From Halobellus clavatus (lineage in GTDB: Archaea; Halobacteriota; Halobacteria; Halobacteriales; Haloferacaceae), in NCBI RefSeq assembly GCF_900107195.1, contig NZ_FNPB01000008.1, positions 1 through 64,000 on the forward strand: DNA of 64,000 nucleotides, written 5' to 3'. Of this stretch, positions 37,249 to 43,485 are shown one piece after another. The notes beneath the pieces were generated by a model. That model was not told where the DNA came from and made no database searches. It saw nothing but the letters and a program-made list of their open reading frames with translations. A program made the position numbers and the translations under genes. The stretch's first letter is position 1; every line of letters begins with the position of its first letter.

Positions 37249-38457
37249 ATGGACAGGTTCCCTGAACGCGTCGTCGAACCCGGTCCATCGAGCAACGGTG
37301 AGGCCGGGCATCCGGGGGACTCAGGTCACATTCAGTTGTACGATATCGTCCTGGATACGTCGACGAGTCTGATGAGCGCCGAGCCGGACGAGTTCGACAC
37401 GAAGCTTCGCTGGGTCCTCGAGAGCGTCGGGACCCACATCGGCGCCGATCGAGGGTCCGTCTTCCAGTCGATGGCTGAGGGCCACGAGCGCGTCGCGTCG
37501 TGGTCCACCGACGGGGTCGATCCGGTGACCCGCCGCCGCGCGGAGTTGGACTCGCTGGAGTGGTTACAGGAGCGACTCGAACAGTTCGACAACGTGCCGA
37601 TCGGCCGGCTGGAGGACGTGCCGCCGAGAGCGGCGCTCAGAACGCGATTCCGTGAAGATGATATCAGCGCCGCGGTGTTTCTGCCGATCGTCGACAACTG
37701 GTCCTTCGGGGGGTTCGTCGTCTTCGACGTACTCGATTCGCCCCGGGAGTGGTCGGACACGGAGGTCGAACTGCTCCGGACCGTCGCGGATATGATCGGC
37801 CACTCCCTGGCGCGGGTCCGACGAGAGACGAAACTCGAAGCGCAAAACGAGCGACTCGAGACGTTCGCGAGCGTGATCTCCCACGACCTCCGCAACCCGC
37901 TGAACGTCGTGACCGGATCGCTCCACATCGCACAGCAGAATCAAAACTCCGAGCACCTCGATCGGGCGGTCCGCGCGGCGAACCGGATGGACGACCTCGT
38001 CGATCAGGTGTTGAAGCTCGCCCGTCGGGGCCGGGACGTCAGCGACCCCCAGCGCCTCGATCTCGACGCGGTGTTTCGGCGCGCGTGGGAGACCGTCGAG
38101 ACGCGCGCCACCACGTTCGAGCCGAAGCCGATCGGGCACACTGACGGTGATCCCGAACGGCTTCGGGAGGCCTTCGAGAACCTCTTTCGGAACGCGATCG
38201 AACACGGCGGCGAGTCGGTGACGGTCCGAGTGGGACCGATCGACGGCGGCTTCTACGTCGAAGACGACGGCCCCGGGATCCCCGAATCCGAACGCGAAAC
38301 GGTCTTCGACCGGGGATACACCACGGACGGCGGGACCGGACTCGGGCTCGCGATCGTCCAGAGCATTTTCGAGGCGCACGGCTGGTCGATCGGTGTCTGC
38401 GAGGGCAGCGATGGCGGGGCCCGATTCGAGGTCACCGGCGTCCGACTCGTGGAGTGA
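37249..38457 (+). CDS. GAF-domain sensor histidine kinase, soluble
   Basis: A 402-residue kinase without membrane segments. Residues about 35-190 form a GAF-like sensor domain. The HisKA box SHDLRNPLNVVTGS has phospho-acceptor His212. The HATPase domain carries the N box FENLFRNAIEHGG, G1 DDGPGIPESE and G2 GGTGLGLAIVQSI. The closest haloarchaeal pattern is bacterio-opsin-activator/HTR-like multi-sensor kinases, here with a single sensor. No response regulator is adjacent, so it is an orphan. The ATG at 37249 gives MDRFPERVVEP; eight codons upstream are also open. Confidence 0.9.
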   Translation: MDRFPERVVEPGPSSNGEAGHPGDSGHIQLYDIVLDTSTSLMSAEPDEFDTKLRWVLESVGTHIGADRGSVFQSMAEGHERVASWSTDGVDPVTRRRAELDSLEWLQERLEQFDNVPIGRLEDVPPRAALRTRFREDDISAAVFLPIVDNWSFGGFVVFDVLDSPREWSDTEVELLRTVADMIGHSLARVRRETKLEAQNERLETFASVISHDLRNPLNVVTGSLHIAQQNQNSEHLDRAVRAANRMDDLVDQVLKLARRGRDVSDPQRLDLDAVFRRAWETVETRATTFEPKPIGHTDGDPERLREAFENLFRNAIEHGGESVTVRVGPIDGGFYVEDDGPGIPESERETVFDRGYTTDGGTGLGLAIVQSIFEAHGWSIGVCEGSDGGARFEVTGVRLVE

Positions 38458-38557
38458 CTGCCGGCGGGGGCTCACCCACCGCTGCAGTCGATCAATTTCC
38501 CGGCTGTCAGTAGTGGAAACAATTATGACGCGATGGACGGAAGGTGACTCCAGACGT

Positions 38558-39346
38558 ATGACACGGCGTTTCTCCCGTCTGTTACCCATCATCGGCGTGG
38601 TGATTCTCTTGGCGTTCAGTTCCATGGCGGCTTCCGCCGCCGTCACGACCAGCAACGACACAGCCTACAACGGTACGCAAACGGACGCCGATCAGGCGAT
38701 CGAGGTGACGTACACGGTCTCACCTGAAGGGAGCACGATCAACAATATGACCGTCGCGTTCACCGGTACTAACCGGGCGCTGCTCGAACCCAACTCGTTC
38801 AGCTTCGCGGTCCGTCCGGGAGGGGCGGACATCAACGTTGAGTCCCGGCCAGGAAACGCGTTCTTCATCGAGGAGATCGAACCGGACGAGGAGGTGACGT
38901 TCGTCTTCCAGACGTATCCCAAGACGATCAAGCAAGAACAGATCGACGCGGCGAACGTTCGGATGGAGTACATCCAGAACGGCCAGGAACTCACCGACTC
39001 CGAGACCGTCTCAGCAGACATGAGATCTTCGCCGTGGTTCGAACTCCAGCAGGCGAACGAGGAGGTCGATCAACTGCAGTCGCAACTCGGTGACGTCTCT
39101 CTCGCCGGGCAGTTCACCAATGCGGCCTTCCTCGGTGGCCTCGCCATCGGCATCGTCGGGCTCGCCTTCGGCGCGTACTCGTGGCGGCGACGCAGCAGCA
39201 GTGCGAGCGATCTGAAGCGAGAACACGCTAACCACCTCGAACGACTCGCGGGAGGAATGGAGAGCAGAGACGACACGAAGACGCTCAACAACGCGGCCGA
39301 ACAAATCCGTGAGGAGATCGACTCTGACGACGGGGACGATTGGTGA
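38558..39346 (+). CDS. membrane-anchored protein with extracellular domain and coiled-coil tail
   Basis: A 262-residue protein. An N-terminal Sec-type signal peptide (RFSRLLPIIGVVILLAFSSM) is followed by a secreted Thr/Asn-rich beta-type domain to about residue 160. A short coiled coil comes next (ANEEVDQLQSQLGD), then one transmembrane segment (FLGGLAIGIVGLAFGAYSW) with positive-inside RRR, and a charged cytoplasmic tail with heptad-like helices. The ATG at 38558 follows a TATA-like caattatg by about 30 bp. Family unknown. It lies upstream of the tubulin-like gene on the same strand and could be its membrane partner (inference). Confidence 0.75.
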   Translation: MTRRFSRLLPIIGVVILLAFSSMAASAAVTTSNDTAYNGTQTDADQAIEVTYTVSPEGSTINNMTVAFTGTNRALLEPNSFSFAVRPGGADINVESRPGNAFFIEEIEPDEEVTFVFQTYPKTIKQEQIDAANVRMEYIQNGQELTDSETVSADMRSSPWFELQQANEEVDQLQSQLGDVSLAGQFTNAAFLGGLAIGIVGLAFGAYSWRRRSSSASDLKREHANHLERLAGGMESRDDTKTLNNAAEQIREEIDSDDGDDW

Positions 39347-39582
39347 CGCTGTCGAGCAGACGAAGGCCCCCGGGGCCGATACCTGTCTTCGGACGCCGCG
39401 ATACTCCCACGCTCGGTCGGCCACAGGTGATCTGCGAAGACGCGAAGTGACTATCAGTCGATGATTCGTCGCCTCTGAAGCGTCGCCTGACCCCCATTTA
39501 TGTGGCTCAGTCCACACGCTTACTAACCGACGGACGGGAGCGGATTTGTGCTTCCGACGTTTCTTGCGCCCCGTCCCTTAGT

Positions 39583-39591
39583 TATAATATA
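39583..39591 (+). promoter_or_regulatory. TATA box for the tubulin-like gene
   Basis: tataatata, within ttagttataatatacagc, centred about 31 bp before the ATG at 39618. This is one of the strongest TATA boxes in the window, so the gene has its own promoter separate from the upstream membrane-protein gene. Confidence 0.7.
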
Positions 39592-39617
39592 CAGCACAGC
39601 GAGATATCTGACAGAGA

Positions 39618-42092
39618 ATGGTTACGAACCCATCTATCGTTATTGGGATTGGGGAGGCCGGTTGCAAGATGGCTGCTCGGACCTACCGAAGCATCGTCGA
39701 TGAGGTCCCAGCCGACCGTGGCGATCAAGAAGAGGTCCTCGACCGCTTCAAATTCGTCGGGATCGACACGAAGGCCGACGAAGTCGAGGAGTACACTCCA
39801 GACTCCTTCCAGACGATCGCGCTCGAGACACCGACAAAGAACTGGGAGAACGACGTCGAGGAGTACCCGTACCTCCGTGACGATATGCGCCTGGCCGACG
39901 TCGGTGGGGCGACGCGTCAGCGCGCGGTCTCCCGGTACTACATCGACAACCTACAGAACTACACGAGCTTTCGACAACAGTTAGAACGCGTCGTCGAGGA
40001 GTTCGAGGACGACGCTGGGAAGGCATTAGACGATCCGGATCTCGACGGCGCGAACCTCTGGATCATCAACTCCTTCGGGGGCGGAACCGGTAGTGGCGCG
40101 TTCCCCCTGATTGCGGGTGAACTCGACCGGATCACGGCCGACGCCGACGAGAACTACTACCTCTGCGGCCTCGGTTCGCTTCCGCGACTCGACCAGATCG
40201 ACGAACAGTCCCGGCCACCGACCGCGAACGAGAACTTCTACGCGAACGCGTACACGGCGCTCCGCGAACTCGCGGTGCTACTCGACTACGACTTCGACGG
40301 CACGTTCGAGGACGCCGCCGGCGCCGGGTACGCGAATGACGGGCTCAGGATCCCGCTGTATGCCACCCACGGAGAGAATCAGCTTCCGGGCTACGACGAC
40401 ATCGTTCTCGAAAGCCCACCGTTCGACTTCTACGGGCTGATCGGCTTCAACGAGGAAAAGGGCGACAACACCGACTACCGGGAGAACCTCAACCAGGTCG
40501 CAGCGGACACCGTGCGACTTCTCGCAGAGGCCTTCGAGGAGGACTTCCCGAACGGCTACTCCCGGTCGGGGCGCAACGGGAAACCGAAACTCTACTCGGT
40601 CGATAGTCGCGGCGTCGAAGTCCCGGTGACGGCCGTCGAGAACTACGTCCAAGCGCTGGAGAACATCCAGGACATCGACGACCGCATCGAGAACGCGGAA
40701 GACGAACTGGAGCGGTACCAGGAAAACCGCGATTACATCAACCAAGCGCTGGACCTCGAATCGGGAAGCCAGGCGTTCGAGGAGGGCCGCGCCGAGGACG
40801 GCGAGGAACTGTACGTGGACAAGTCGCTCGTCGAGACCGCTCGAGAACACGCCACCAACGAATTCGACCCGCGGGACGGCTACGACGACGCCCTCTTAGA
40901 CGAGAAGTACGAGAAAGCGCTCTCACAGGTCGGCTCGCTGTCGAGCCGGTACGAGTTCTCGGTCGACGACGTCTTCTCGTACTTCTACTACCGCGAACTG
41001 GTCACCCGTCTCCAGTCGCTCAAGCAGGGCCACCGGTTCACCCGGCTCGTCCAAGACGCTGTCGAAGACTACGCGGATAAGTTCTCCCGATACCTCGATA
41101 GCGACCAGACGCAGTTGCTCACCGACTCCAGCGCGGATCCGCTCGCGAAGTGGACCGGCGGCCTCGAGGAGTGGTTCGACGAGGCGATCGACGATCAGGA
41201 GCGAAAACTCGAATCTACGAGCCGGATCAAGTTCCGGCTCCGCGGGGAGATCGAAGACCGAATCGACACCCTCGAACAGCGGCAGAACGAACTCACTGAC
41301 GAGTACGCGGAGTTCAAGCACATCGAGGACGCACAGAGCACCGCCCGCGGCCGTCGCGAGGACGCCCGGACCGGGTTGGCGGACATCCGTGACGACATCA
41401 ACGACAAAATCCGTCAGGCGGAGTCCGACCTCGAACAACTCCGCGAGGAACGCGGCCGCCGCGAGAACGTCCAGCGCTCTCGGCGGGAGACGCTGGAGTC
41501 GTACAAGCGCGAACGGTACGTGAGTATCCCGTTCCAGAACTTCGAGAACGCCAGCGTCGAGTTTCTCACCGACCTCGAGAGCATCGGTGACCTGCTCGAA
41601 CGGAGCATCGTGAGCCGCCAGCGGGTCGCTCGTGCGCTCGAGTTCACCCTCGAACACCTCGAAGAGCCGTTCCAGGACCTCGAACCGCAGAACGTCCCGA
41701 TCAACCCATACCGGTACCTCGGCGTCCTGACGAACGACTCGAACGTCGATCTGCTTCAGGGCGAACTCGACGACGTCGAGGGGATCGACACCGTTCCCAC
41801 ACTGATGTCGACCAACAGCGAGGAACAGGAGACGGCACTCGTCGACGACGTGTTCCGCATCCGATTCACCGGCGTCCACGCGGACATCGCCTTAGAGAAC
41901 AGCAGCGAGTTCGGCCAGATCCACGAGCACTTCCGCGCCGACGAGGACGTCGGCGAACTGCTCGGATCGACGGCGGAGGACGCCGAACTCGTCGCACGGA
42001 AGTTCGGCTACCCGGAACTGTTCCCCGACGACGACCAGATCAACGACGCGTGGGGATTCTCCTCGGAAGTGACTGAACCGGCCGAAGACTGA
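39618..42092 (+). CDS. tubulin/FtsZ-superfamily protein with coiled-coil insertions (Tubulin_2/FtsZl-like)
   Basis: An 824-residue protein. The N terminus has a tubulin-type GTPase domain: first glycine loop IGIGEAGCKMAARTY and the tubulin signature SFGGGTGSGAFPLIAGELD (GGGTGSG at 154-160). YRENLNQVAADTVRLLAEAF may be the T7/synergy-loop region. The middle and C-terminal parts are long and charged, with coiled-coil character around 360-420 and 545-660, then a globular end. FtsZ and CetZ are about 360-400 residues, so this is another branch. Non-canonical tubulin families in bacteria and archaea have been predicted to remodel membranes. Biochemical role unknown. Confidence 0.82.
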   Translation: MVTNPSIVIGIGEAGCKMAARTYRSIVDEVPADRGDQEEVLDRFKFVGIDTKADEVEEYTPDSFQTIALETPTKNWENDVEEYPYLRDDMRLADVGGATRQRAVSRYYIDNLQNYTSFRQQLERVVEEFEDDAGKALDDPDLDGANLWIINSFGGGTGSGAFPLIAGELDRITADADENYYLCGLGSLPRLDQIDEQSRPPTANENFYANAYTALRELAVLLDYDFDGTFEDAAGAGYANDGLRIPLYATHGENQLPGYDDIVLESPPFDFYGLIGFNEEKGDNTDYRENLNQVAADTVRLLAEAFEEDFPNGYSRSGRNGKPKLYSVDSRGVEVPVTAVENYVQALENIQDIDDRIENAEDELERYQENRDYINQALDLESGSQAFEEGRAEDGEELYVDKSLVETAREHATNEFDPRDGYDDALLDEKYEKALSQVGSLSSRYEFSVDDVFSYFYYRELVTRLQSLKQGHRFTRLVQDAVEDYADKFSRYLDSDQTQLLTDSSADPLAKWTGGLEEWFDEAIDDQERKLESTSRIKFRLRGEIEDRIDTLEQRQNELTDEYAEFKHIEDAQSTARGRREDARTGLADIRDDINDKIRQAESDLEQLREERGRRENVQRSRRETLESYKRERYVSIPFQNFENASVEFLTDLESIGDLLERSIVSRQRVARALEFTLEHLEEPFQDLEPQNVPINPYRYLGVLTNDSNVDLLQGELDDVEGIDTVPTLMSTNSEEQETALVDDVFRIRFTGVHADIALENSSEFGQIHEHFRADEDVGELLGSTAEDAELVARKFGYPELFPDDDQINDAWGFSSEVTEPAED

Positions 42093-42162: not shown

Positions 42163-43485
42163 TCACTCCGCGTTTCCGAGATCCGTTACCTCGTCGCGAT
42201 TCGGGAGATACGCGTAGATCACACCCGCGATCGCTGTCAGCACCGCGAGCAGGACGAACGCGGCCGTGTACAGATCATGGTCGGCCATCGCCCCGACGGC
42301 GGTCGAGCCGAACGCGCCGACGACGAAGAGCGAGGTCCGAATGGCTCCCCACGCAGTCCCGCGGACGTCGGCGGGGAGGAGGGCGACGATGTACGCGTTG
42401 GCGACGGGGCCGACCACGAGTCGCATCCCAAGCAGGAGGACGATTACGACGAGCGGCACGATTCCCTCCGCGAACGGCAGCGCGAGCAGGGGCCCGATGC
42501 CGACGAACGCGACGATCGAGAGGACTGTTCCGTACCCGTATCGGTCCGCCAGTGCGCCCCCGGTCGACTGAAACACCGCCGCGCTCAGAAACAGGAGGCC
42601 GAAGAGCGTCCCTGCCGTCGCCTCCGAGAGCGCTTTCGCGGTCACGAGATACGTCGTGAGGAAAGCGGTCAGCCCCTGAAACGCGAACAGCATCAGCGTC
42701 GTCCCGATCATCGCGAGGACGACCTTCCGCGAGCTGACGCCGCGGCGGACGTCGCCGGCGGCGGCGCGGAGTCGTGCTGTGAGCGGCCGGTCCTGCGGTT
42801 CAGTCTCCGCCTCCGCGGCCGCCTCGTCGCCGTCGGTCCGACGGGCTGCATCGACCGTTGATTGCGCCGGTACGAACGCACCGAGCGCGACCGCCGCGAG
42901 GAGGAAGCCGGGTGCGGTGAGTCCCAGCGCGCCGCGCCACCCCACCACCCCGGTCGCGTAGGTCGCGAGCGGGGGTACGAGCGCCGCGCCGATGCTCCCC
43001 GCCGCGAGGACGATCCCGAAGGCGGCACCGTCGCTGTCGGTGTAGGTCCGCGTGAGTACGGTCCCGCGGGGCGGTCCGTAGAGTCCCGAGGCGAATCCGA
43101 ACGCGGCGGTCGCGAGGACGAACAGCGCGAACGTCGGCGCGACGGCGTAGGCGACCATCGTGAGTGCGCCCGTCCCGGCGCTCCCGACGAGCAGCGTCCG
43201 CTCGCCGACCCGATCGACCAGGACGCCGGCGGGGAACTGCATCGCGGCGTAGGTGACCCACAGCAGCGTGATCGCCGCACCAGCGACGGTCTCCGAAACG
43301 GGGAAATCGGCTCTGATGGCCGGTAACAACGCGGGGATCGTGAATCGTAAGCCGAGCGCGAAGAACCACCCGCCGGCGATGGCGAGCAGCGTCCAGCCGC
43401 GGCCGTCGCCCCGCAGGGAGGCGACCACGGCCCCCACTCGGTCGGTGAGGGAGCTCGAAGACGGCGACACGCTCTCGTGAAGCAC
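42163..43485 (-). CDS. major facilitator superfamily transporter
   Basis: A 440-residue MFS protein with 12 hydrophobic segments and a central acidic cytoplasmic loop (residues about 205-235). The motif A-like LVDRVGERTLLVGSAG follows helix 2, and GGALADRYGYGTV is its repeat in the second half. The haloarchaeal type resembles nitrate/oxalate or multidrug carriers; specificity cannot be read. It converges on the tubulin-like gene with 70 bp between stops. The start MLHESVSPSSSSL at 43485 gives a short polar N terminus. Confidence 0.9.
   Translation of the reverse strand: MLHESVSPSSSSLTDRVGAVVASLRGDGRGWTLLAIAGGWFFALGLRFTIPALLPAIRADFPVSETVAGAAITLLWVTYAAMQFPAGVLVDRVGERTLLVGSAGTGALTMVAYAVAPTFALFVLATAAFGFASGLYGPPRGTVLTRTYTDSDGAAFGIVLAAGSIGAALVPPLATYATGVVGWRGALGLTAPGFLLAAVALGAFVPAQSTVDAARRTDGDEAAAEAETEPQDRPLTARLRAAAGDVRRGVSSRKVVLAMIGTTLMLFAFQGLTAFLTTYLVTAKALSEATAGTLFGLLFLSAAVFQSTGGALADRYGYGTVLSIVAFVGIGPLLALPFAEGIVPLVVIVLLLGMRLVVGPVANAYIVALLPADVRGTAWGAIRTSLFVVGAFGSTAVGAMADHDLYTAAFVLLAVLTAIAGVIYAYLPNRDEVTDLGNAE

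Follow-up and report, generated by a model that had tools for sequence, protein, structure and literature searches.

A predicted single-span membrane protein constantly linked to short FtsZl1-family tubulin homologues in Halobellus clavatus and other Halobacteriota

The main finding of this analysis is not the large tubulin-like protein of Halobellus clavatus in itself, since FtsZl1, its size and coiled coil, and its predicted membrane link are already known, but a predicted single-span membrane protein of 262 residues (hereafter, the partner) and its constant linkage to that tubulin homologue. In the window (i.e., the whole stretch of 64,000 nucleotides analysed here), the partner gene precedes on the same strand, with a gap of 271 nt, the gene coding for an 824-aa FtsZl1 protein; all of the 27 strong partner loci are linked to a short FtsZl1 gene. 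This makes it likely that the two proteins act jointly, the partner being possibly an anchor, a sensor or a regulator. Taken together, the sequence data and the structural models make it moderately probable that the pair represents a conserved, membrane-coupled two-protein FtsZl1 module. The organization of the locus is the following:

37249-38457, plus strand: sensor-kinase-like flanking gene, outside the conserved unit
38515..38557, plus strand: promoter-like conserved element upstream of the partner gene, GGAAACAATTATGACG, from similarity to Halorientalis persicus DNA
38558..39346, plus strand: partner gene, 262 aa, ATG start, no Pfam family above cut-off
39573..39617, plus strand: TATA-like conserved element upstream of the tubulin-like gene, CCCTTAGTTATAATAT, from similarity to Halorientalis persicus DNA
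39618..42092, plus strand: FtsZl1/Tubulin_2 gene of the short (partner-associated) subfamily, 824 aa, ATG start
42163-43485, minus strand: transporter-like flanking gene, outside the conserved unit

Within a 12-kb locus, the window resembles Halorientalis persicus DNA at positions 38515-39309 and 39573-42092 only, the similarity starting 43 nt ahead of the partner ATG; the two genes and their upstream elements are all that the two DNAs have in common. The tubulin-like proteins share 81% of their residues and the partners about 66%. The divergence at the first, second and third codon positions is 0.24/0.16/0.62 for the partner gene and 0.14/0.10/0.62 for the tubulin-like gene, a pattern indicating that both are coding and under purifying selection. 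A separate conserved element precedes each gene (GGGAAACAATTATGAC-like for the partner gene, GTCCCTTA[GA]TTATA[AT]TAT for the tubulin-like gene); thus, they form a neighbouring pair, and it is not clear that they share a single transcript. Beside its intact pair, Halorientalis persicus also harbors a C-terminal fragment (234 aa) of another FtsZl1, of the 950-aa type (L089:1438-2142, minus strand).

The sequence-only reading had placed the 824-residue protein in the tubulin superfamily on the basis of the GGGTGSG signature and of the first glycine loop, and had set it apart from FtsZ and CetZ by its double size. Both elements are present, and the profile searches agree with this assignment: Tubulin_2 (PF13809) matched residues 7-300 (5.2e-20, 72.4 bits, cut-off 27), and the scores of PF00091 (Tubulin; 28 bits, cut-off 33) and TIGR00065 (FtsZ equivalog; 11.4 bits, cut-off 295.2) were under the respective thresholds. 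On sequence grounds, the protein is clearly an FtsZl1-family tubulin homologue and a member of the tubulin superfamily. This membership rules out a new tubulin family, while a paralogue of FtsZ or CetZ is ruled out by the sub-threshold scores, together with the separate CetZ-like genes of the genome. The latter also encodes FtsZ1, FtsZ2 and two CetZ-like proteins, which makes the FtsZl1 pair an extra system. In HMM-HMM alignments with these four proteins, the T1, S2, T3, T4 and H5 regions were aligned at E 2e-10, and the loop GIGEAGCKMA was paired with GCGGAGGNTV of FtsZ1. The relevant positions within the gene are:

39636..39674, plus strand: T1 glycine loop region, residues 7-19, IVIGIGEAGCKMA, from the HMM-HMM alignment with FtsZ1
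40077..40097, plus strand: T4 loop with the tubulin signature GGGTGSG, residues 154-160, from sequence and HMM-HMM alignment
40491..40493, plus strand: Asn292 in NQVAADTVRLL, weak candidate for the guanine-contacting Asn of helix H7, from conservation and HMM alignment
41232..41498, plus strand: main coiled coil, an 89-residue helix, residues 539-627, from the AF2 model
42006..42023, plus strand: C-terminal motif GYPELF, residues 797-802, subfamily pattern (F/Y)AYPE(L/W)

The AF2 model of the protein (mean pLDDT 85) does retrieve tubulin-superfamily structures, as this assignment requires: the 50 PDB matches listed (E 6e-6 to 7e-5) are either entries of tubulin, FtsZ, CetZ or TubZ or chains belonging to microtubule assemblies, with TM-scores, normalised on the target, of only 0.33-0.52, so that the fold similarity covers part of the 824 residues. 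Binding of GTP by the N-terminal domain is predicted. Asn292 may correspond to the H7 asparagine, a weak assignment suggested by the presence of N at this position in most family members, by a helix spanning residues 285-305 and by the global HMM alignment, which places it at or near the H7 site of FtsZ1. After this H7-like helix, the NxDxxD of the catalytic T7 loop of FtsZ is unrecognisable, and residues 307-320 have a pLDDT below 50; hydrolysis by the FtsZ mechanism is therefore doubtful and the usual GTP-driven filament dynamics are not assured. According to Makarova and Koonin (PMC2875224), T6-H7 of FtsZl1 is not confidently identifiable.

The attribution of the large size to coiled-coil regions holds, since the model contains helices of 43 (337-379) and 89 residues (539-627), mostly of high confidence, followed by a mixed, mainly helical region (640-824). 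As a novelty it does not, because the combination of an FtsZ-like domain and a coiled coil was described in 2010 from haloarchaeal Huta_2051, and membrane remodelling has been predicted for FtsZl1 proteins since then (PMC2875224). Tubulin_2 proteins were excluded from a 2023 survey as too divergent (PMC9871819). The H. clavatus protein shares with Huta_2051 of Halorhabdus utahensis the N-terminal tubulin GTPase domain, the GGGTG(S/T)G signature, the extended coiled coil and the mostly helical C-terminus, as well as membrane-protein neighbours and coexistence with FtsZ; it differs in length (824 versus 1051 aa), in belonging to a separate short clade, and in its surroundings, where the Ig-like, single-span protein is a constant companion and no vWA, GTPase or kinase genes lie next to it in the window. 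As for CetZ, the haloarchaeal cell-shape tubulins, both are tubulin-superfamily proteins beyond FtsZ, and the fold search also listed the CetZ entry 3zid; however, CetZ proteins (about 400 aa) are about half as long, and the present protein has a coiled coil and matches Tubulin_2 rather than PF00091. A search of the open-access literature retrieved no description of this membrane protein, of the short clade or of the pair as a unit, and no experimental study of FtsZl1. Possibly, the partner corresponds to one of the families A1-A2, left unnamed in the PMC2875224 supplements.

Concerning the partner, the extracellular domain and single membrane span proposed for the same-strand neighbour agree with the predicted model. 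A signal-like core at the N-terminus precedes a beta-sandwich covering residues 29-154, for most of which the pLDDT exceeds 80. Next come an extracellular helix (159-182), the membrane span (about 190-212), the sequence RRR and a cytoplasmic part of 50-55 aa with two helices of moderate to lower confidence. Most members carry positive (K/R-rich) residues after the span, which is consistent with an ectodomain outside the cell. In the fold search, the matches were no more specific than Ig-like domains in general (best E 1.5e-6, with TM-scores of about 0.2-0.5); in Pfam, NCBIfam and PADLOC, no named family scored above cut-off and no model of a described FtsZ membrane tether was matched.

The further proposal that a cytoplasmic coiled-coil tail acts as the anchor is not supported by the comparison of the family, whose tails range from 10 to 114 residues, several of them too short for a coiled coil. 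In a 10-sequence alignment, the invariant residues besides the start Met (E111, Y120, P121 and S158) and the conserved stretches around YPKTIK and Y-Q-G-Q all fall in the ectodomain. This suggests that the outer end is no less important than the inner one, which a simple anchor would not predict, and the variable short tail set against the conserved ectodomain also counts against membrane coupling. An acidic/hydrophobic C-terminal motif (DDLDDL, DGDDW, EFDLEL) was likewise considered as a docking peptide and discarded as a general feature, not being universal and being absent in Syntrophoarchaeum. The corresponding criterion was passed by 10 of 20 partners and by 22 of 622 control proteins, but it was chosen after the tails had been seen, and haloarchaeal proteins are acidic anyway; these tails would be only a lead.

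We then checked the co-occurrence of the two genes, using the match coordinates of partner and FtsZl1 together with the gene maps. Probing 391 Halobacteria genomes with the partner profile retrieved 20 strong matches (E<=5e-53), the next one being at 4e-7; in all 20 genomes the partner adjoins a short FtsZl1 gene or lies within about two genes of it. Weak matches (E 1e-7 to 1e-3) were taken as chance or generic membrane-anchored proteins and left uncounted. The 27 loci comprise these 20 plus G001, G002, Halorientalis persicus and four from the non-haloarchaeal set (L101, L102, G452 and G608); two of these four, G452 and G608, came from a search of the phylum, and both have the pair linked. The expected co-occurrence of the neighbour in related genomes is thus borne out as a near-obligate linkage, extending to Syntrophoarchaeum (L102). 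The pair is also present on a contig labelled Candidatus Aerophobetes (L101), whose neighbouring genes are common to the Halobacteriota genome L171; the bin is therefore probably contaminated with archaeal DNA. One "tubulin" match of the full-length profile (L043_26) was discarded as an SMC-like coiled-coil false positive.

In principle, the two genes might simply travel together without their products acting together. The separate conserved upstream elements and the retention of a partnerless FtsZl1 in the same genome agree with such a co-transfer. However, the partner is located upstream, downstream or convergent depending on the genome, which implies that the linkage has outlasted rearrangement and is more than inherited synteny; since it holds in every strong locus despite changing order and strand, from Halobacteria to Syntrophoarchaeum, with the other neighbours turning over, we consider mere co-transfer most improbable. 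Furthermore, the distances among the tubulin-like proteins and among the partners correlate (r=0.81, with 0 of 5000 permutations as high), a correlation partly due to shared ancestry.

The linkage is specific to one subfamily. In the tree of the N-terminal domain, all the haloarchaeal short FtsZl1s fall into one group (92/83), Syntrophoarchaeum branches next to it (92/86), and eight long haloarchaeal FtsZl1s (1052-1152 aa) form a separate clade (100/100). The C-terminal (F/Y)(A/G)YPE(L/W) motif occurs in most short FtsZl1s, including, by the pattern used, two of the three C19-type ones described below, and was absent from the eight long FtsZl1s searched. Conserved membrane proteins adjoin FtsZl1 on both sides of the split, but the constant neighbour in the long loci is a protein of about 480 aa with 4-5 N-terminal spans, unmatched by the partner profile; the gene maps revealed no relative of the partner beside the mapped long FtsZl1s, nor was it found at 10 bacterial FtsZl1 loci. 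In L155-L164 this multi-span protein consistently follows the long FtsZl1, often together with a single-span protein.

Three short FtsZl1s lack the partner (C19 of the H. clavatus genome, C1 of G009 and C21 of G011) and together form one clade; they imply that the partner is not universally needed. Judging from the tree, which cannot prove the direction, the short clade probably had the partner early on, its absence from the C19 branch being due to loss. The C19 gene (G000:C19:503116-505374, minus strand; L032) is a second H. clavatus FtsZl1, with an open frame of 781 aa; it adjoins a PfkB-like sugar kinase gene, an arrangement repeated in G009 and G011. A 423-aa FtsZl1 piece without partner was also found in G404.

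According to the reading that we favour, the 824-aa protein would bind GTP through its N-terminal domain and, through this domain and the long coiled coil, assemble or change state. The partner would be its dedicated membrane protein, with the Ig-like domain outside, facing the S-layer, and one span crossing the membrane; its span or short cytoplasmic part would recruit or read the FtsZl1 protein, possibly by direct contact. The outcome would be a membrane-coupled scaffold or switch, to be distinguished from CetZ as well as from the division ring of FtsZ1/FtsZ2, with a possible role in cell shape or membrane remodelling. In this proposed design, where a second protein keeps a soluble tubulin-like polymer at the membrane, the pair would resemble FtsZ and its tethers (archaeal SepF, bacterial ZipA/FtsA). 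ZipA, by contrast, binds FtsZ through a domain located inside the cell, and the folded domain of the partner is predicted outside. A stronger version, with this single-span protein physically joining an FtsZl1 polymer to the extracellular surface layer, as an additional cytoskeletal system distinct from FtsZ and CetZ, appears unlikely. If the pair did couple a tubulin-like polymer to the cell exterior, it would represent a new kind of archaeal link between cytoskeleton and envelope, and surface-layer coupling would give this link a logic analogous to that of adhesion receptors.

The genes surrounding the pair in other genomes bear on a different scenario, i.e., a transmembrane signalling or stress switch. 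Its Ig-like ectodomain would detect a ligand or the state of the envelope, and FtsZl1 would serve as the GTP-dependent effector, under the control of phosphorylation and chaperones, rather than as an anchored filament. In several relatives, the pair is accompanied by FHA-bearing Ser/Thr kinases, a zinc-ribbon/FHA protein, vWA proteins, a PP2C/SpoIIE-like fragment, an Hsp70 and a GrpE-like protein; the vWA/kinase/GTPase operon context, frequent though not sequence-defining, is found at G002, G258 and others. Moreover, the ectodomain is the conserved part of the partner, and transport or signalling was proposed by a reviewer of the 2010 paper (PMC2875224). Nevertheless, none of these accompanying genes is adjacent to the pair in the window, where the vWA/kinase/GTPase context is absent as well, or in its closest relatives (G009, G011 and Halorientalis persicus), which points to accessory genes around a minimal pair. 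We regard the signalling switch as rather unlikely.

The patchy distribution of the unit (the partner is present in about 5% of Halobacteria genomes), its variable gene order and the Halorientalis persicus DNA similarity ending at the edges of the pair might also suggest a mobile conflict cassette, moving between genera and protecting against viruses or rival cells. Such a function seems improbable: the PADLOC matches were weak and of the coiled-coil type only, no nuclease, toxin or abortive effector was found, the viral contigs yielded no relative with the patterns used, and the pair occurs in non-haloarchaeal Halobacteriota. A defence system is thus unsupported by either the PADLOC or the viral-contig search.

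A constant single membrane partner provides a simple two-gene unit for testing the membrane-coupled module. Among the cultured species that carry the pair are Haloferax marinum and Haloarcula japonica, whose cells are triangular, so that deletion and tagging are realistic.

Lastly, some variant loci were observed. In the twin loci (L082, L083, L084 and L086, and also G293, Haloarcula japonica, L094), two divergent FtsZl1 genes, coding for about 770 and 950 aa, have in common one partner gene and, as a neighbour, an HExxH-type zinc-ribbon protein of about 480 aa. The T4 loop is degraded beside the partner in L078 (SGGTAAG) and in L076 and L077 (AGGTGAG), whose FtsZl1 sequences suggest possible pseudo-GTPases. 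Two copies are decaying: in L081 (G229:C2) an FtsZl1 gene interrupted by stop codons adjoins an intact partner, and in L082 (G126:C34) the partner gene carries one in-frame stop.
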